Assembly (NCBI RefSeq): GCF_014483895.1
Contig: NZ_CP059987.1
Location: 2,418,001-2,482,000 of the forward strand
Source: Protaetiibacter sp. SSC-01
GTDB taxonomy: Bacteria > Actinomycetota > Actinomycetes > Actinomycetales > Microbacteriaceae
Direction of reading: 5' to 3'
DNA: 64,000 nucleotides
Positions 12,308 through 50,995 of this stretch are shown here, piece by piece. Every line of letters starts with the position of its first letter. The first letter of the stretch is position 1. Made by a program: the position numbers and the translations under genes. A model generated the notes under the pieces. It was not told the origin of the DNA and did not search any database. It saw only the letters and a program-made list of their open reading frames with translations.

Positions 12308-14065
12308 ATGCCTCGCATCACGAAGGTCCTGATCGCGAATCGGGGAGAGATCGCGGTGCGCGTGATCCGCGCCGCCCGCGACGCCGGAATCGCATCCGTC
12401 GCCGTCTACGCCGACCAGGACCGCGGTGCGCGGCACGTCGTGCTCGCCGACGAGGCGTACGCCCTCGACGGCTCGACGAGCGCCACGACCTACCTCGTCA
12501 TCGACAAGATCCTCTCCGTCGCCCGCCGCTCGGGCGCCGACGCCGTGCACCCCGGCTACGGCTTCCTCGCCGAGAACGCCGACTTCGCGCGCGCCGTCAT
12601 CGACGCCGGACTCATCTGGATCGGCCCCTCGCCGGATGCCATCGAGCGCCTCGGCGACAAGGTGTCGGCCCGCCACGTGGCCGAGAAGGTGGGCGCCCCG
12701 CTCGCCCCCGGAACCCTCAACCCCGTCTCGGGCGCCGACGAGGTGCTCGAGTTCGTCGACCAGCACGGCCTGCCCGTCGCCATCAAGGCGGCGTTCGGCG
12801 GCGGCGGGCGCGGCCTCAAGGTCGCCCGCACGCGCGAGGAGGTGCCGGAGCTCTTCGATTCCGCCACGCGCGAGGCCGTCGCGGCGTTCGGCCGCGGCGA
12901 GTGCTTCGTCGAGAAGTACCTCGACAAGCCGCGCCACGTCGAAACCCAGTGCCTCGCGGATGCCGAGGGCAACGTCGTCGTCGTGTCGACGCGCGACTGC
13001 TCGCTGCAGCGCCGCCACCAGAAGCTCGTCGAGGAGGCGCCCGCGCCGTTCCTCACCGACGAGCAGCGCGAGCTGCTCTACAGCTCGTCGAAGGCCATCC
13101 TCAAGGAGGTCGGCTACGTCGGCGCCGGCACGTGCGAGTTCCTCATCGGGGTCGACGGCACGGTGTCGTTCCTCGAGGTCAACACGCGACTCCAGGTCGA
13201 GCACCCGGTCTCCGAGGAGGTCACCGGCATCGACCTCGTGCGCGAGCAGTTCCGCATCGCCGAGGGCGGCATCCTCGACTACCCGGACCCCGTGACCCAC
13301 GGCCACTCGATCGAGTTCCGCATCAACGGCGAGGACCCGGGTCGCAACTTCCTGCCGACCCCGGGCCCCATCCAGGCGATCCGCTACCCGGGCGGCCCCG
13401 GCGTGCGCGTCGACTCGGGTGTCACGACGGGCGACGAGATCTCGGGCGCCTTCGACTCCCTCATCGCGAAGCTCATCGTGACCGGCTCGACGCGCGAGGA
13501 CGCCCTCGAGCGCGCCCGCCGCGCGCTCGACGAGTTCGAGGTCGCGGGCCTGCCGACCGTCATCCCGTTCCACCGCGCGATCGTGCGCGACCCCGCGTTC
13601 ACCGCCGAGAGCGGCGAGTTCGGCGTCTTCACGCGCTGGATCGAGACCGAGTTCTCGGGCGAGCTCGAGCCCTGGGGCGGCGTGCTCGCCGAGGCCTCGG
13701 CTCCCGAGAAGCGCCACTCGGTCGTCGTCGAGGTCGAGGGCAAGCGCGTCGCGGTGTCGCTCCCGACGACGCTCCTGCCGTCCGCCACGGTGTCCGCTCC
13801 CCCGCCCCCGCGTCGCCGCGGCGGCTCGCGCGCGGTGTCGACGGCATCCGGCGACGCGGTCAAGGCGCCCATGCAGGCGACGGTCGTCAAGGTCGCGGTG
13901 AACGAGGGTGACAAGGTCGTCAAGGGCGACCTCGTGGTCGTGCTCGAGGCGATGAAGATGGAGCAGCCGCTCACGGCCCACAAGGACGGCACGATCGGCC
14001 CGATCGACGCCACCGTCGGCGCCACCGTCTCCTCCGGCCACCTGCTCCTGACGATCGCCGACTGA
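12308..14065 (+). CDS. accA3: Acyl-CoA carboxylase alpha subunit: biotin carboxylase plus biotin carrier domain
   Basis: Carboxylates its own biotin with bicarbonate and ATP and delivers it to the beta subunit. The 585 residues contain the biotin carboxylase N-domain ([20 protein letters not shown]), the ATP-grasp domain with [13 protein letters not shown] and [20 protein letters not shown], and a C-terminal biotinyl domain with the modified Lys in EAMKMEQPL. Between them lies a Pro/Arg linker near residue 500. This is the AccA3/AccA2 architecture of actinobacteria. It is apart from its beta and epsilon partners at 5.0-6.8 kb. BirA (3.4 kb) would biotinylate it. Name taken by synteny. Confidence 0.95.
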
Positions 14066-14074
14066 CCCCGTCCC

Positions 14075-14143
14075 GTCCGCGAAAGTACGTACTTTTCGTC
14101 CGTACAGGCCCGTCAGAACGGAAAAGTACGTACTCTCGCGGAC
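14075..14143. repeat. Palindromic repeat, copy A (GTCCGCGA...TCGCGGAC family)
   Basis: 23-bp arms with one mismatch: left GTCCGCGAAAGTACGTACTT plus TTC, right the inverse ending TCTCGCGGAC, separated by 23 nt. Each arm itself holds the perfect palindrome AAGTACGTACTT. It sits between the convergent ends of accA3 and lpdA, and so could end both transcripts. Three further copies are at 23305, 24250 and 50922. Confidence 0.9.
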
Positions 14144-14206
14144 GCTCGGGGCTGTGACGCGCACGCGCGGGTGCGCCGGCCGCGGGGGGCGCGGCGGGCG
14201 CGCGGG

Positions 14207-18210: not shown

Positions 18211-18219
18211 CTGCTCTCC

Positions 18220-18355
18220 CGCTGGTTGAGTAGCCCGCGCAGCGGGCGTATCGAAACCCGACGAACGCATGACGTCGGTGGGGTTTCGATACGCGCCCTC
18301 CGGGCGCTACTCAACCAGCGGAGTGGGGCGCTGCGCGGGCTACTCACCCAGCGGG
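18220..18355. repeat. Cluster of three GGTTGAGTAG-type repeats
   Basis: A forward copy (18220-18259: CCGCTGGTTGAGTAGCCCGC, then GCGTATCGAAACCC) faces an inverted copy (18280-18321: GGGTTTCGATACGCGC, then GCTACTCAACCAGCGG). A third partial inverted unit follows (18328-18355, GGCTACTCACCCAGCGGG). Each unit has its own inner hairpin, and the pair forms a long inverted repeat between the convergent ends of the phosphohexomutase and PTS IIB genes. No gene in this 173-nt gap. Confidence 0.9.
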
Positions 18356-22335: not shown

Positions 22336-23283
22336 ATGCCCCGACGGATCATCCTCGACTGCGACCCCGGCCACGACGACGCGATCGCGCTCCTGCTCGC
22401 GCACGGCAACCCCGAGATCGAGCTCGCGGCGGTCACGACCGTGGCGGGCAACGCGGGCATCGAGAACGTCACCCGCAACGCGCTCTCGGTGGCGCGCATC
22501 GCGGGCATCACGGGCGTCCCCTTCGCCCGGGGCGCGGGCCGGCCGCTCGTGCGCAGCGTCGAGTTCGCCCCCGACATCCACGGCGACTCGGGCCTCGACG
22601 GTCCCGTGCTGCCCGAGCCCGCGTTCGACGTCGACCCGCGCGGCGCCGTGCAGCTCATCATCGACACGGTCATGGAGTCGGAGCCCGGCACCGTCACGCT
22701 CGTGCCGACGGGCGCCCTCACCAACATCGCGCTCGCCGCGCGCATCGAGCCGCGCATCGTGTCCCGCGTGCGCGAGGTCGTGCTCATGGGCGGCGGCGTG
22801 CACGGCGGCAATTGGAGCCCGACGAGCGAGTTCAACATCGTCATCGACCCCGAGGCCGCGCACATCGTCTTCAACGAGTCGTGGCCCCTCACGATGGTCG
22901 GAATCGACGTGACGCATCGCGCCCTCGCGACGCCCGAGGTGCGGGATCGCATCGCGGCCGTCGGCACGCGACCGGCCGAGTTCGTGGGCGAGCTCCTCGA
23001 CTTCTTCGGCGCCACCTACCTCGAGGCGCAGGGGTTCGCCTCCCCGCCCGTGCACGACCCCGTGGCGATCGCCTACGTCATCGACCCCGCCGTGTTGCAG
23101 GTCGTCAAGGCCCCGCTCGACGTCGAGCTCTCGGGCACGGTCACGCTCGGCATGACCGTGGCCGACCTCCGCCGACCCGCGCCCGCGGACTGCACGACCC
23201 AGGTCGCGCTCGGCATCGACGAGTCCCGCTTCTGGGACCTCGTCGTCGACGCCCTCGAGCGCATCGGCGACCCCGAGGCGTAG
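22336..23283 (+). CDS. Inosine-uridine-type nucleoside hydrolase
   Basis: Ca-dependent cleavage of ribonucleosides into base and ribose. 315 residues opening RRIILDCDPGHDDAIALLLA, the DxDxxxDD metal motif, followed by VTTVAGNAGIENVTRNAL, VTLVPTGALTNIALA, VVLMGGGVHGGNWSPTSEFNIVIDPEAA and PVHDPVAIAYVIDP with the late catalytic His-Asp pair. The ATG is set by the leaderless box. Divergent from the SAH hydrolase-IclR operon with 74 bp between and a shared candidate operator. Downstream lies palindromic repeat copy B. Sub-specificity (purine versus pyrimidine) cannot be told. Confidence 0.95.
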   Translation: MPRRIILDCDPGHDDAIALLLAHGNPEIELAAVTTVAGNAGIENVTRNALSVARIAGITGVPFARGAGRPLVRSVEFAPDIHGDSGLDGPVLPEPAFDVDPRGAVQLIIDTVMESEPGTVTLVPTGALTNIALAARIEPRIVSRVREVVLMGGGVHGGNWSPTSEFNIVIDPEAAHIVFNESWPLTMVGIDVTHRALATPEVRDRIAAVGTRPAEFVGELLDFFGATYLEAQGFASPPVHDPVAIAYVIDPAVLQVVKAPLDVELSGTVTLGMTVADLRRPAPADCTTQVALGIDESRFWDLVVDALERIGDPEA

Positions 23284-23304: not shown

Positions 23305-23374
23305 GTCCGCGAGAGTACATACTTTTCGCCGCGTGGCGCCCGTTTGCGACCCGAAAGTCCGTACTTTCGCGGAC
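23305..23374. repeat. Palindromic repeat, copy B
   Basis: Left arm GTCCGCGAGAGTACATACTT, right arm ending AGTCCGTACTTTCGCGGAC, 70 bp in all. The copy is more diverged inside the core than copies A and D. It follows the nucleoside hydrolase stop by 21 nt and ends 1 nt before the start codon of the nuclease-like gene. Confidence 0.88.
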
Positions 23375-23375
23375 C

Positions 23376-24278
23376 ATGAGCGAACAGCTTCCGGTCCACT
23401 TCCGCGTCCGAGACGCACTCGATCGGGGTGTCACACGAGACGCACTTGCCGGGGACGACTGGTACGTCCCGTACTGGGGCATACGGTCTCGGAAACAAGT
23501 GAGCGACCTCCGGGAGAGGGCGGATGCCTTCCTCCCACGGCTCCCGGCGCGCGCCTTCTACTTCGGCCCCACGGCCGCGGAGCTCCACGGCATCCCCATC
23601 CCCCACCGCACGACGAGCCTCGCCCTGCACATCGGCGTCCGGGCCGGCGATCGGCGAGTCGAGGCCCGCGGCGTCGTCGCCCACCACGTGACGATCGACC
23701 CCCGCGACGTCACCTCCCTCGAGGGGCTTCCGGTGACGACCGCAGCGCGCACCTGGTGCGACCTGGCGGCCGGCGGGCTGCGACGACATGAGGTCATCGC
23801 GGCGGGCGACCGCATCCTGTGGGCAGACGACCCGCTCGGCACACTCCACGATCTCCGGACAGCGCTCGCGCGATACGAAGGACGCCGCGGCAGCAAGCTC
23901 ATGCGCGACGCGCTCCCCGCGCTGTCGAGCGGATCGGCATCGCCGCCCGAGACGTGGTTGCGGGTGCTCGTGATCGACGCGGGCCTGCCTGTCCCATCGG
24001 TCCAGGTCGAAGTGGCGAACCGCTGGGGCCGGGTCCTCGGGCGCTGCGATCTCGGCTGGCCGGAGCTGCAGGTCGGGCTCGAGTACGAGGGCGACCACCA
24101 TCGGACCGACGCCGGCCAGTGGCGTTACGACGTCCGCCGCTACGGCGAGATGCAGGAGGCCGGCTGGTTCATCATCCGCGTCACCTCGGACGACATGCGC
24201 GACTCCCACGCACGCGCTGTCCTGCTCAACCGCATCCGCTCCGCGATCTCCGCGAGAGTACGTACTTTGCAGCCGTAG
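23376..24278 (+). CDS. AbiEi-like/DUF559 protein: winged-helix plus PD-(D/E)XK (Vsr-like) nuclease fold
   Basis: 300 residues. The N-terminal part (VRDALDRGVTRDALAGDDWYVPYWGIRS) resembles the AbiEi-antitoxin winged helix of a common actinobacterial family. GVVAHHVT and LEGLPVTTAARTWCDLA are its mid-region signature. The C-terminal domain, GRCDLGWPELQVGLEYEGDHHR through GWFIIRVTSDDM, fits a DUF559/Vsr-like PD-(D/E)XK fold with candidate catalytic D near 224 and E near 234. No toxin or methylase partner is adjacent. The gene starts 2 nt after repeat copy B, and its last codons (SARVRTLQP) are encoded by repeat copy C. Codons ATA, TCT, AAA and CAA cluster near residue 40, unlike neighbours, suggesting transfer. 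Substrate unknown. Confidence 0.75.
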   Translation: MSEQLPVHFRVRDALDRGVTRDALAGDDWYVPYWGIRSRKQVSDLRERADAFLPRLPARAFYFGPTAAELHGIPIPHRTTSLALHIGVRAGDRRVEARGVVAHHVTIDPRDVTSLEGLPVTTAARTWCDLAAGGLRRHEVIAAGDRILWADDPLGTLHDLRTALARYEGRRGSKLMRDALPALSSGSASPPETWLRVLVIDAGLPVPSVQVEVANRWGRVLGRCDLGWPELQVGLEYEGDHHRTDAGQWRYDVRRYGEMQEAGWFIIRVTSDDMRDSHARAVLLNRIRSAISARVRTLQP

Positions 24279-24317
24279 GGCGCGGAATACGCCGAAAAGT
24301 ACGTACTTTCGCGGACG
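24250..24317. repeat. Palindromic repeat, copy C (partly inside the nuclease gene)
   Basis: Left arm TCCGCGAGAGTACGTACTTT codes the last residues of the nuclease-like protein. The right arm AAAGTACGTACTTTCGCGGA, ending at 24317 with C, stops 6 nt before the convergent stop codon of deoA. Together with copy B it brackets the nuclease gene. Confidence 0.9.
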
Positions 24318-24322
24318 AGTGG

Positions 24323-25612
24323 CTAGGCGAGGCGGGTGCGGATGAGGGGGCGCTCGGGGAGGGCGGCGCCGGAGGGAGCGATCGAGTAGGCGCCCTCGAG
24401 GGCCTCGAGCGCGCGCGGGAAGCGGGCCTCGTCGTCGGCGTGCATCGTGAAGAGCGGCTCGCCTGCGCGCACCGCGTCGCCCGGCTTCTTGTGCAGGTCG
24501 ATGCCCGCCGCGTGCACGACCGGATCCTCCTTGCGCGCGCGGCCCGCCCCGAGTCGCCACGCCGCGACGCCGAAGGGCAGCGCCTCTTGCGTCGCGAGCA
24601 CGCCGTCCTCGGATGCCGTCACGACGTGCGACTCGCGCGGCGTCGGGAGCTCCGCATCCGGGTCACCGCCCTGGGCGGCGATCATCGCGCGCCAGGTGTC
24701 CATCGCGCGGCCGTCCTTGAGCGCGGACTCGACGTCGGCATCCGGCACGCCCGCCATGTCGAGCATCTCGCGCGCGAGGGCGAGCGTGAGCTCGACGACG
24801 TCCGCGGGTCCGCCGCCGGCGAGCACCTCGACCGACTCGCGCACCTCGTTGGCGTTGCCGATCGCGAGACCGAGCGGCACGTTCATGTCGGTGAGCAGCG
24901 CGCGCGTCGCGACACCCGCCTCGTTGCCGAGGCGCACCATCGTCTCGGCGAGCTCGTGGGCGCGGTCGTAGTCCTTCATGAAGGCGCCGCCGCCGAACTT
25001 CACGTCGAGAACGAGCGAGGCCGTGCCCTCCGCGATCTTCTTCGACATGATCGACGACGCGATGAGCGGGATCGCCTCGACGGTGCCCGTGATATCGCGC
25101 AGCGCGTAGAGCTTGCCGTCGGCGGGCGCGAGGTCGGCGCCCGCGGCGCACACGACGGCGCCCACCGAGCCGAGCTGGGCCAGGAACTCGTCGTTCGACA
25201 GGCGCGCACGCCATCCGGGGATCGACTCGAGCTTGTCGAGCGTGCCGCCCGTGTGGCCGAGGCCGCGACCCGAGAGCTGCGGCACGGCGACGCCGAACGA
25301 CGCCACGAGCGGGGCGAGCGGGAGGGTGATCTTGTCGCCCACGCCGCCCGTCGAGTGCTTGTCGGTCGTCGTCTTGCCGAGGCCCGAGAAGTCGAGGCGC
25401 TCGCCGCTCGCGACCATCGCGAGGGTGAGCTCGCGGATCTCGTCTGACGTCATGCCGTTGAGGAAGACCGCCATCGCGAAGGCCGACATCTGCTCGTCGG
25501 CCACGTAGCCGCGCGTGTAGGCGTCGACGAGCCAACGGATCTCGTCGGCCGTCAGCGTTCCCTTGTCGCGCTTGCGATGGATGAGGTCGACGGTGTCGAA
25601 GGGCTCGACCAT
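24323..25612 (-). CDS. deoA: Thymidine (pyrimidine-nucleoside) phosphorylase
   Basis: Phosphorolysis of thymidine and deoxyuridine to base and deoxyribose-1-phosphate. 429 residues with DLIHRKRDKGTLTADEI at the N-terminus, the phosphate-binding KHSTGGVGDKITLPLAPLVAS, SGRGLGHTGGTLDKLESIPG, and SSIMSKKIAEGTASLVLDVKFGGGAF. AAAGGA ahead of the ATG at 25612 is a good ribosome site, so this gene has a leader, in contrast to many neighbours. Last gene of the BMP-ABC-cdd-deoA operon, where imported nucleosides are degraded. A diverged fragment of another family member is found at 46685. Confidence 0.96.
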   Translation of the reverse strand: MVEPFDTVDLIHRKRDKGTLTADEIRWLVDAYTRGYVADEQMSAFAMAVFLNGMTSDEIRELTLAMVASGERLDFSGLGKTTTDKHSTGGVGDKITLPLAPLVASFGVAVPQLSGRGLGHTGGTLDKLESIPGWRARLSNDEFLAQLGSVGAVVCAAGADLAPADGKLYALRDITGTVEAIPLIASSIMSKKIAEGTASLVLDVKFGGGAFMKDYDRAHELAETMVRLGNEAGVATRALLTDMNVPLGLAIGNANEVRESVEVLAGGGPADVVELTLALAREMLDMAGVPDADVESALKDGRAMDTWRAMIAAQGGDPDAELPTPRESHVVTASEDGVLATQEALPFGVAAWRLGAGRARKEDPVVHAAGIDLHKKPGDAVRAGEPLFTMHADDEARFPRALEALEGAYSIAPSGAALPERPLIRTRLA

Positions 25613-25657
25613 GGCTGGTCCTTTCCTGGGTGGTGCGGATGCGGGGCGCACGTCGCG

Positions 25658-38414: not shown

Positions 38415-38421
38415 AAGATCG

Positions 38422-39540
<1,119 letters not shown>

Positions 39541-40840: not shown

Positions 40841-40889
40841 TGGTCGCTTCTCGGCCTCAAATAGCCCGGATAGGGCCAGAAACCGACCA
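40841..40889 (+). terminator. Imperfect hairpin after the HAD gene
   Basis: TGGTCGCTTCTCGGCC pairs with GGGCCAGAAACCGACCA with few mismatches, directly after the HAD stop and before the riboflavin promoter. Probable transcription end; no T-tract. Confidence 0.5.
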
Positions 40890-47441: not shown

Positions 47442-49322
47442 ATGACGAGCACCGACGCGCCCGCGCGCCGCAACCCCCTGCGCCGCAACCCCCTGCGCCG
47501 CAACCTCCTCCGCCGCACCCCCGACACGGGGCCGCGCGCGTCGTTCCGCGAGCTGCTGCCGTACCTGACGGAGCACAAGGGGCTGCTCTCGCTCGCGATC
47601 GTGCTGAGCCTCGTCGCCGCGGCGCTCTCGCTCGCCCAGCCCGCGCTCGTCAGCCAGGTCATCACCGTCGTGCAGGACGGCGGCGCAGTCGGCGCGCTCG
47701 CGTGGCTGCTCGTCGCGCTCGTCATCGCCAACGGCATCGTCGGCGCCGTGCAGCACTACCTGCTGCAGCGCGCCGGCACGAGCGTCGTGCTGTCGTCGCG
47801 CCGCGCCCTCGTGCGCCGGATGCTGCGCCTCCCCATCAGCGAGTTCGACACGCGCCGCTCGGGCGACCTCGTCTCGCGCGTCGGCAGCGACACGACGCTC
47901 CTCTACGCCGTGCTCACGCAGGGTCTCGTCGACGCCCTCGGCGGTGCCGTGGTCTTCGTCGGCGCCATCATCGGCATGGCCATCATCGACCCCGTGCTGC
48001 TCGGCGCGACCGTGCTCGTCATCGCGCTCGCGATCGGCGTCGTCGGCGGGCTCTCGGGCCGCATCCGCATCGCGAGCCGGGAGCAGCAGGAGAAGGTCGG
48101 CGAGGTCGCGGCGGGCGTGCAGCGGGCGATCTCCGCCATCCGCACCGTGCGGGCGGCCAACGCGACCGAGCGCGAGACCGAGGCGATCGAGGCGGATGCG
48201 CGCGCCGCGTGGGGAGCCGGCATCCGCGTCGCGAAGGTGTCGGCGCTCGTCGTGCCGGTCGCGTCGATCGCGATGAACGTGTCGTTCCTCGTCGTGCTCG
48301 GCCTCGGCGGCTACCGCGTCGCGTCGGGCGCGATCACGATCGCGAGCCTCGTCGCGTTCATCCTGTTCCTGTTCCTCATGATCATGCCGCTCGGGCAGGC
48401 CTTCGGCGCCGTCACCTCCGTCAACCAGGCGCTCGGCGCGCTCGGCCGCATCCAGGAGATCATGCGCATCCCCTCGGAGGACGAGGGCGACCACGCCGTC
48501 GAGACCGCGCCCGATCTCGCGACGGATGACGCCATCCGCTTCGAGGACGTGCGGTTCTCCTACCCCGAGCAGGCGCACGCGACCGAGCAGGAGAAGGTGG
48601 TCGCGTCGGAGCTCGGCGAGGACGCCGTCGAGCCGCACGACCGCGAGGTGCTGCACGGCGTCTCGTTCGGGGTGCCGCGGGGCAGCCGTGTCGCGCTCGT
48701 CGGGCCGTCGGGTGCCGGGAAGTCGACGATCCTCGCGCTCATCGAGCGCTTCTACGACCCGAACGCGGGTGTCGTGCGTGTCGACGGGGTCGACGTTCGG
48801 TCGCTCCCCCGCGAGCAGCTGCGCAGCCGCATCGGCTATGTCGAGCAGGACGCGCCCGTGCTCGCCGGCAGCATCCGCGACAACCTCACGCTCGGCACGC
48901 CCGACGCGAGCGACGAGCAGTGCGTCGAGGTGCTGCGCACCGTCAACCTCGGCGAGGTGCTCGACCGGGATCCGGCCGGCCTGGATGCGGCGGTCGGCGA
49001 GGAGGGCGTCATGCTCTCCGGCGGCGAGCGACAGCGCCTCGCGATCGCGCGGGCCCTGCTCGCGGCGCCGCCCATCCTGCTGCTCGACGAGGCGACGGCG
49101 TCGCTCGACGGCGCGAACGAGCAGCTGCTGCGCGAGGCGATCGACGCCGTGGCGGCCGAGCGCACCCTGCTCGTCATCGCGCACCGCCTGTCGACGGTCG
49201 TCGACTCGGATGCCATCGTCGTGCTCGACCACGGCCGCGTCGTCGGCGTCGGCACGCACTCGGAGCTCGTCGTCTCGACCCCGCTCTACCGCGACCTCGC
49301 GAAGCACCAGCTTCTGGTGTGA
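47442..49322 (+). CDS. ABC exporter, fused permease and ATPase (half-transporter)
   Basis: 626 residues: a type IV exporter membrane domain with six helices (about 40-330), then one ABC domain with Walker A VGPSGAGKST, Q-loop YVEQDAPVLAGSIRDNL, signature LSGGERQRLAIARALL, Walker B ILLLDEATASLD and H-loop IAHRL. It would work as a homodimer exporting a drug, lipid or peptide. An unusual feature is an N-terminal basic tract of (RRNPL) repeats, residues 9-27. An inserted acidic stretch (EQEKVVASELGEDAVEPHDRE) lies before Walker A. CCGGAGAG serves as ribosome site. Co-transcribed with the small HTH protein, its likely regulator. Confidence 0.93.
   Translation: MTSTDAPARRNPLRRNPLRRNLLRRTPDTGPRASFRELLPYLTEHKGLLSLAIVLSLVAAALSLAQPALVSQVITVVQDGGAVGALAWLLVALVIANGIVGAVQHYLLQRAGTSVVLSSRRALVRRMLRLPISEFDTRRSGDLVSRVGSDTTLLYAVLTQGLVDALGGAVVFVGAIIGMAIIDPVLLGATVLVIALAIGVVGGLSGRIRIASREQQEKVGEVAAGVQRAISAIRTVRAANATERETEAIEADARAAWGAGIRVAKVSALVVPVASIAMNVSFLVVLGLGGYRVASGAITIASLVAFILFLFLMIMPLGQAFGAVTSVNQALGALGRIQEIMRIPSEDEGDHAVETAPDLATDDAIRFEDVRFSYPEQAHATEQEKVVASELGEDAVEPHDREVLHGVSFGVPRGSRVALVGPSGAGKSTILALIERFYDPNAGVVRVDGVDVRSLPREQLRSRIGYVEQDAPVLAGSIRDNLTLGTPDASDEQCVEVLRTVNLGEVLDRDPAGLDAAVGEEGVMLSGGERQRLAIARALLAAPPILLLDEATASLDGANEQLLREAIDAVAAERTLLVIAHRLSTVVDSDAIVVLDHGRVVGVGTHSELVVSTPLYRDLAKHQLLV
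47466..47522 (+). repeat. In-frame 15-bp tandem repeat in the ABC exporter gene
   Basis: CGCCGCAACCCCCTG occurs twice exactly, then a third unit with two changes (CGCCGCAACCTCCTC) and a partial fourth, encoding RRNPL-RRNPL-RRNLL-RRTP. The unit length is a multiple of three, so slippage would change tail length without breaking the frame. Confidence 0.9.
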
Positions 49323-49324
49323 CA

Positions 49325-49398
49325 TGGCGCGGCTGGAGCCGTGACGTCACGGCGGGAGTTGTTTCTCCCGCCGTCGGGTCACGGCTCCAGCCGCGCCA
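49325..49398. terminator. 74-nt hairpin between convergent genes
   Basis: Outer arms are 21 bp and perfect (49325-49345 TGGCGCGGCTGGAGCCGTGA plus C, paired with 49378-49398). After a 3x3 internal mismatch the stem continues with ACGGCGGGAG / CTCCCGCCGT (49349-49358 and 49365-49374) around a TTGTTT loop. It fills the whole gap between the ABC exporter and dehydrogenase genes and would fold in transcripts from both sides. Confidence 0.8.
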
Positions 49399-49404
49399 CG
49401 ACAC

Positions 49405-50921: not shown

Positions 50922-50990
50922 GTCCGCGAGAGTACGTGCTTTTCCCCGATGACGGGCCGCCGAGGCGGAAAAGTACGTACTCTCGCGGAC
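50922..50990. repeat. Palindromic repeat, copy D
   Basis: Left arm GTCCGCGAGAGTACGTGCTT plus TTCC, right arm GGAAAAGTACGTACTC plus TCGCGGAC, 69 bp in all, separated by a 21-nt spacer unrelated to the other copies. It lies 5 nt past the stop of the MmpL gene and upstream of gabD. The arms are almost identical to copy A over 6 kb or more of unrelated sequence, so the arms, not the spacer, are conserved. Confidence 0.9.
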
Positions 50991-50995
50991 GGGGG

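Follow-up and report, generated by a model that had tools for sequence, protein, structure and literature searches.

The locus and its predicted nuclease

The stretch of DNA analysed here, called the window, comprises 64,000 nucleotides of the genome of the actinobacterium Protaetiibacter sp. SSC-01 (contig NZ_CP059987.1, positions 2,418,001 to 2,482,000). It carries on the plus strand a gene for a putative nuclease of 300 amino acids (23376..24278, with the ATG at 23376), which is enclosed by two copies of a 70-bp palindrome designated T1. The upstream copy B (23305..23374) ends 1 base 5' of the ATG, and the downstream copy C (24248..24317) holds the last codons of the gene together with its stop codon, followed after five bases by the stop codon (24323) of the right neighbour. 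By their matches, the neighbours are an inosine-uridine nucleoside hydrolase gene to the left (22336..23283, plus strand) and the pyrimidine nucleoside phosphorylase gene deoA to the right (24323..25651, minus strand). Two dispersed copies without the gene have been located elsewhere in the window: copy A (14075..14144), situated between a biotin carboxylase gene (12308-14065) and a pyridine-nucleotide oxidoreductase gene in convergent orientation, and copy D (50922..50991). An initial annotation of this DNA had described the gene between two copies of the palindrome, its position between nucleoside hydrolase and deoA and the two further copies; the coordinates and the neighbour matches bear out this description.

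The protein is predicted to be a fusion of an AbiEi-type DNA-binding region with a nuclease domain of the Vsr/I-Bth0305I type. Residues from about 1 to 184 match the fold of the AbiEi antitoxin, and the catalytic-domain fold of the EDxHD homing endonuclease and of Vsr is also matched, the predicted nuclease domain spanning residues 187-296 approximately. All four residues E, D, H and D are present, whereby the assignment of the EDxHD motif to this protein is our own. In a comparison of 26 homologues, E192 and D225 are invariant, and H242 and D252 are found in 21, with K and E in the remaining five. The Pfam families REase_MTES_1575 (PF18741) and DUF559 (PF04480) are matched by 17 and five of 26 family members, respectively; the window protein itself stays below the Pfam cut-off (20.5 vs 38.2 bits). 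Of the genomes sampled from the bacterial family, taken to be Microbacteriaceae, about three quarters contain relatives of the enzyme (227 of 299 with a profile match at E 1e-10), which also occur in other actinobacterial families. The window's genome alone contains six homologues by profile search. The protein is seldom encountered on mobile replicons, with 7 of 72,556 plasmid records and 1 of 50,697 phage records.

Bracketing of the homologues by matched palindromes

Bracketing was scored as the local similarity between the region 5' of the start codon and the one that surrounds and follows the stop codon, with a threshold of 25, for loci within and outside the genus; further homologues recovered by the profile search lie outside these counts. 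The genus set consists of 31 of the 35 homologue matches in nine genomes, and the absence of a cassette from a genome is judged from these 31. A matched palindrome pair surrounds 28 of them, the window's own gene included. Outside the genus 49 of 65 loci are bracketed, or 48 of 64 upon removal of L123, which by its coordinates duplicates the congener G001. With L123 counted, the bracketed loci are distributed as 28/32 in Arthrobacter and Pseudarthrobacter, 16/22 in other genomes of the family and 5/11 among other named loci. Two loci on short stretches (L099 and L104) had been excluded before the count; three truncated genes (L126, L159 and L163) were retained and failed. The threshold was exceeded by 3 of 197 random positions at the same spacing and by 1 of 38 other genes of the window. 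Mismatched pairs of loci scored above 25 in 91 of 600 cases, an excess that probably derives from related Arthrobacter loci, which share palindromes and are not independent of each other. Gene lineages differ in their palindrome sequence, and bracketing by a matched pair is the rule for the family far beyond the window. Homologues mostly devoid of flanking palindromes, the pattern held by the initial annotation to speak against its guess, are thus not what is seen, and its central idea of a REP/RAYT-like link between nuclease and palindrome, with an unrelated nuclease fold, receives strong support from the 28/31 and 48/64 bracketed loci.

Architecture of the palindromes

From the 2.96-Mb genome that contains the window (G000), 23 distinct T1 palindromes have been extracted, counting both brackets. 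The T1 core pattern has 15 forward and 17 reverse matches genome-wide, where its reversed version, used as a control, has 0 and 1; this excess is not due to chance. Each copy is built from a pair of inverted arms, each about 24 bp long and approximating GTCCGCGAGAGTACGTACTTTTC, with a spacer of about 20 bp between them; the arms are conserved and the spacers variable. Many of the dispersed copies lie close to stop codons, with 8 of 22 sites between convergent genes according to a crude gene call.

The offset between arm starts is characteristic for each palindrome family. It amounts to 45-47 in T1 and to 30 in the six copies measured of T4, the type that brackets homologue L010. In the family T2 (arm GAGGYGTCASTTT...), it is 36 without exception, both in the 24 copies of G007 and in the 28 copies of G003. 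In T2 of G007 the arms are near-identical between copies and the spacers near random (48% pairwise identity vs 40% upon shuffling), whereby the corresponding T1 figures include arm bases. The two arms within a T1 copy do not co-vary (1.04 mismatches vs 1.07 shuffled in G000), and hairpin co-variation has been found neither in T1 of G000 and G006 nor in T2 of G003. In T2 of G007 (L272-L291, L230 and L071), on the other hand, mismatches are fewer between the two arms of a copy than between arms of different copies (0.38 vs 0.69). With this exception, the fixed spacing together with the lack of co-variation between T1 arms is better accounted for by a pair of half-sites for a protein on duplex DNA than by a hairpin in RNA. 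A GAG tag common to the outer ends of the palindromes, considered as a candidate feature, occurs in 65 of 158 cases against a background of 25% and is too weak to be claimed. T2 palindromes of G003 come in close pairs, at most about 100 bases apart, at several sites (L233, L236 and L239).

Dispersed copies follow the type of the cassette

Arms of each family were counted in the nine genus genomes on both strands, with bracket copies included; the reversed-pattern controls for T1, T2 and T4 gave 0 or 1 per genome. Genomes with a T1-bracketed cassette at the deoA site contain 46 (G000), 52 (G006), 31 (G002) and 41 (G001) T1 arms, and the other five 26, 13, 10, 1 and 0. T2 arms number 53, 49 and 18 in G007, G003 and G005, where the cassette at the deoA site has T2 brackets, and 16, 3, 1, 1, 0 and 0 in the remaining six. 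For T4, the two genomes with a T4 cassette, G000 and G006, have 35 and 61 arms, followed elsewhere by 27, 10 and five zeros. Outside the genus, the genome of Brevibacterium casei contains 43 arms of its own bracket type and that of another Brevibacterium 19, with 0, 0, 5, 4 and 2 in five other genomes, counts that are background as the reversed control reaches up to 10 in this search. In each palindrome family, genomes with the cassette outrank those without it; as related species are non-independent, no combined p-value is given. Some palindromes of G004, G006, G002 and G007 form pairs at a distance of about 0.6-1.3 kb, and the DNA between them contains no nuclease match.

Probable exchange at the deoA site and switching of dispersed sites

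The best nuclease match adjoins deoA in seven of the nine genus genomes (G000-G003 and G005-G007), with a nucleoside hydrolase as the second neighbour in some and an adenosine deaminase in others. The cassette that hops between places, as pictured by the initial annotation, is therefore to be revised in that the place at deoA persists and the allele changes; what turns over are the dispersed palindromes. A case in point is G003, the sister of the window's genome, with biotin carboxylase proteins 96% identical and grouped at 98/93, and flanking DNA about 90% identical. The genes that flank the deoA-site cassette are 89-92% identical between the two genomes. The G003 cassette has T2 brackets, and its protein is 43% identical to the window's and groups with those of G005 and G007 at 100/100, which contradicts the housekeeping tree. 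Judged from these sequences, the pattern looks like an allele exchange at a fixed site.

A comparison of 22 palindrome loci of the window's genome with 26 of G003 identified five dispersed orthologous sites that carry T1 in the former and T2 in the latter. Four further orthologous sites carry T1 in both genomes, three of them with a near-identical spacer; from these shared sites it follows that T1 is ancestral and that T2 came in on the G003 line. About 0.6 chance coincidences are expected for 21 by 20 sites if these are a random draw from roughly 700 convergent gene ends, a number that is assumed and not counted. Among more distant pairs of genomes, G000/G007 adds two switched sites, and G006/G003 and G006/G007 add three each, with anchoring by only one flank in some cases. 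Two candidates have been kept out of the count of five: at L042/L257, which at first appeared to be shared, the window's genome has a T1 palindrome and G003 is without one and lacks about 150 bases, and at L029/L260 the right side could not be anchored.

The site of copy A carries T1 in G000 and G006 and T2 in G003 and G007; after the same biotin carboxylase gene, G004, G005 and G008 harbour a bracketed nuclease homologue of another lineage, and no palindrome is present in G002 or G001 within the 327 bases inspected.

A proposed two-part system and its alternatives

Building on the bracketing, the lineage-specific palindromes, the association of cassette and dispersed type, the constant arm distance around freely varying spacers and the switch of type in place together with the cassette, all of which have been observed, we consider it rather probable that a widespread actinobacterial two-part system is at hand. 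This system would consist of a nuclease gene enclosed by a pair of bipartite palindromes and of solitary copies of the same palindrome at other places, from a few to about 30 per genome, many of which lie at gene ends, with the protein renewing the palindromes in trans.

With respect to the mechanism, AbiEi is described to bind a pair of 23-bp inverted repeats separated by 3 bp, and Rv2827c such a pair with 13 bp in between, in both cases in their own promoters (PMC7319586). The AbiEi-like region might equally bind the two inverted half-sites of the palindrome and may, from the upstream copy, autoregulate the gene. I-Bth0305I is described to dimerise on nearly 60 bp (PMC3943268); a domain of the Vsr/I-Bth0305I type could nick or cut at the palindrome, whereupon repair or recombination would set up and renew palindromes in trans. 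With an incoming cassette of another specificity, the old palindromes would lose their enzyme, decay and get overwritten at the same permissive sites. The more far-reaching proposal, that an AbiEi-type reader joined to a Vsr/homing-type nuclease writes and maintains its own palindromes at gene ends as a new class of nuclease-driven repeat system, is given slightly better than an even chance. According to this proposal, palindromes throughout the genome take on a new type, at unchanged sites, when the cassette is exchanged, with the arms set by the enzyme and the spacers free, and the system would be an independent counterpart of RAYT-REPIN.

Several observations weigh against this reading. Outside the genus, 16 of 65 loci are below the bracket threshold, one of them by a tie. 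The T2 rank of G005 hangs on its brackets: these account for five of its 18 arms, and without them G005, with 13, falls behind G008, with 16. Palindromes also occur without a matching cassette among the examined homologues, namely T1 in G004, G005 and G003, T2 in G008, and T4 in G008 and G003, possibly as relics of lost cassettes. Extra copies of the own type in the 20-kb flanks of 33 loci amount to 6 hits, 3 of which come from one locus, as compared to 18 in 330 control comparisons. Finally, neither inheritance from the prior copy nor copying from the flank explains the spacers in general. The idea that a spacer is kept when the arms are swapped has been rejected, with a centre-aligned identity of 6.6/18 at 13 orthologous T1/T2 pairs and of 6.5 at unrelated pairs. 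As to an origin of spacers from flanking DNA, none of the four copy sets showed an excess (p 0.2 to 0.87); the spacer-versus-flank score is 11 at two of the five switched sites and at most 9 for mismatched pairs.

Alternatively, the protein might be a transcription regulator of the AbiEi type only, with the upstream palindrome as its operator, the dispersed copies controlling other genes and the nuclease domain vestigial or acting elsewhere. Such a regulon accommodates the AbiEi-like fold of residues 1-184, the binding of own-promoter inverted-repeat pairs by AbiEi and Rv2827c (PMC7319586) and a rigid arm spacing that fits a bound dimer. It is nevertheless considered unlikely, as most loci have a palindrome copy also at the 3' end of the gene, many dispersed copies are found near stop codons with 8/22 sites between convergent genes by the crude gene call, residues of catalytic type are conserved, and the palindrome type switches at the same sites in a sister species.

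Quite unlikely is a scenario in which convergent gene ends merely tolerate insertions, the palindromes are moved by some other transposase, and the nuclease cassette travels as a passenger that inserts into them or is delimited by them. In its favour, one and the same site can be taken by palindromes of several families or by a complete cassette, for example 3' of the biotin carboxylase gene. However, the palindrome type follows the lineage of the cassette and nuclease lineages differ in their palindromes, and the window's genome has no match to the Y1 HUH transposase family PF01797, the one transposase family searched, with matches in 5 of 14 control genomes. That the palindromes are 3'-end hairpins for transcript ends, with a secondary link to the nuclease, is suggested by the many copies directly after stop codons and yet very unlikely, since the arm sequence tracks the cassette type and the arms of a copy co-vary in T2 of G007 only and not in T1 or in T2 of G003.

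Relation to known systems

RAYT-REPIN is the known model for the persistence of short palindromes in bacterial genomes, with REPINs composed of inverted paired units and a variable spacer between them. As in the two-part system proposed here, the gene in REPIN/RAYT and REPtrons is described to have palindromes at its flanks that recur in intergenic regions (PMC3733652). The enzyme, however, is different, being AbiEi-like and of the Vsr type and not of family PF01797; a GTAG-type end is absent from 29 aligned copies of T1, the palindrome family checked for it, and the arm spacing is rigid and family-specific. By analogy, the system thus appears to work like RAYT-REPIN without being a member of it. 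In contrast to the EDxHD homing endonuclease I-Bth0305I and to Vsr, the DNA-binding part is AbiEi-like and the window gene is free-standing, with intact palindromes kept on both sides. Unlike in the AbiEi/Rv2827c type IV toxin-antitoxin systems, the AbiEi-like region is fused to a nuclease and matching palindromes are dispersed genome-wide. An AbiE nucleotidyltransferase toxin gene is absent as an immediate neighbour, both neighbours being nucleoside-metabolism genes. Members of the nuclease family share with DUF559 and REase_MTES_1575 the respective Pfam matches; in the portion of its description considered, MTES_1575 is presented among large HEPN fusion proteins, with palindromes not mentioned there (PMC3710099). 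A description of DUF559 or AbiEi-Vsr proteins tied to dispersed palindromes has not been found in the titles and abstract beginnings of the open-access literature, bioRxiv not being covered.

If the proposal holds true, a second palindrome system with an unrelated enzyme would mean that partnerships of this kind have more than one evolutionary origin. Furthermore, a common uncharacterised actinobacterial protein family would gain a function, and nucleases with a readable palindrome specificity might perhaps be provided. Cause and effect are open to testing through the naturally occurring allele swap that distinguishes G003 from G000, their DNA around the sites being about 90% identical.

Further repeats in the window

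Besides T1, a lone dispersed palindrome of a second family is present at 49319..49404. It is of the type that brackets the nuclease homologue L011 of the same genome, so that the window carries at least two nuclease-linked palindrome families. A different palindromic repeat, GGTTGAGTAG...CTACTCAACC, occurs in several copies, among them 18219-18321 and 38419-38512; its core has not been seen at the nuclease loci examined. A single arm-like T4 match at 40872-40888 is within chance expectation, as one match per window is, but it also appears in the genome-wide T4 list.
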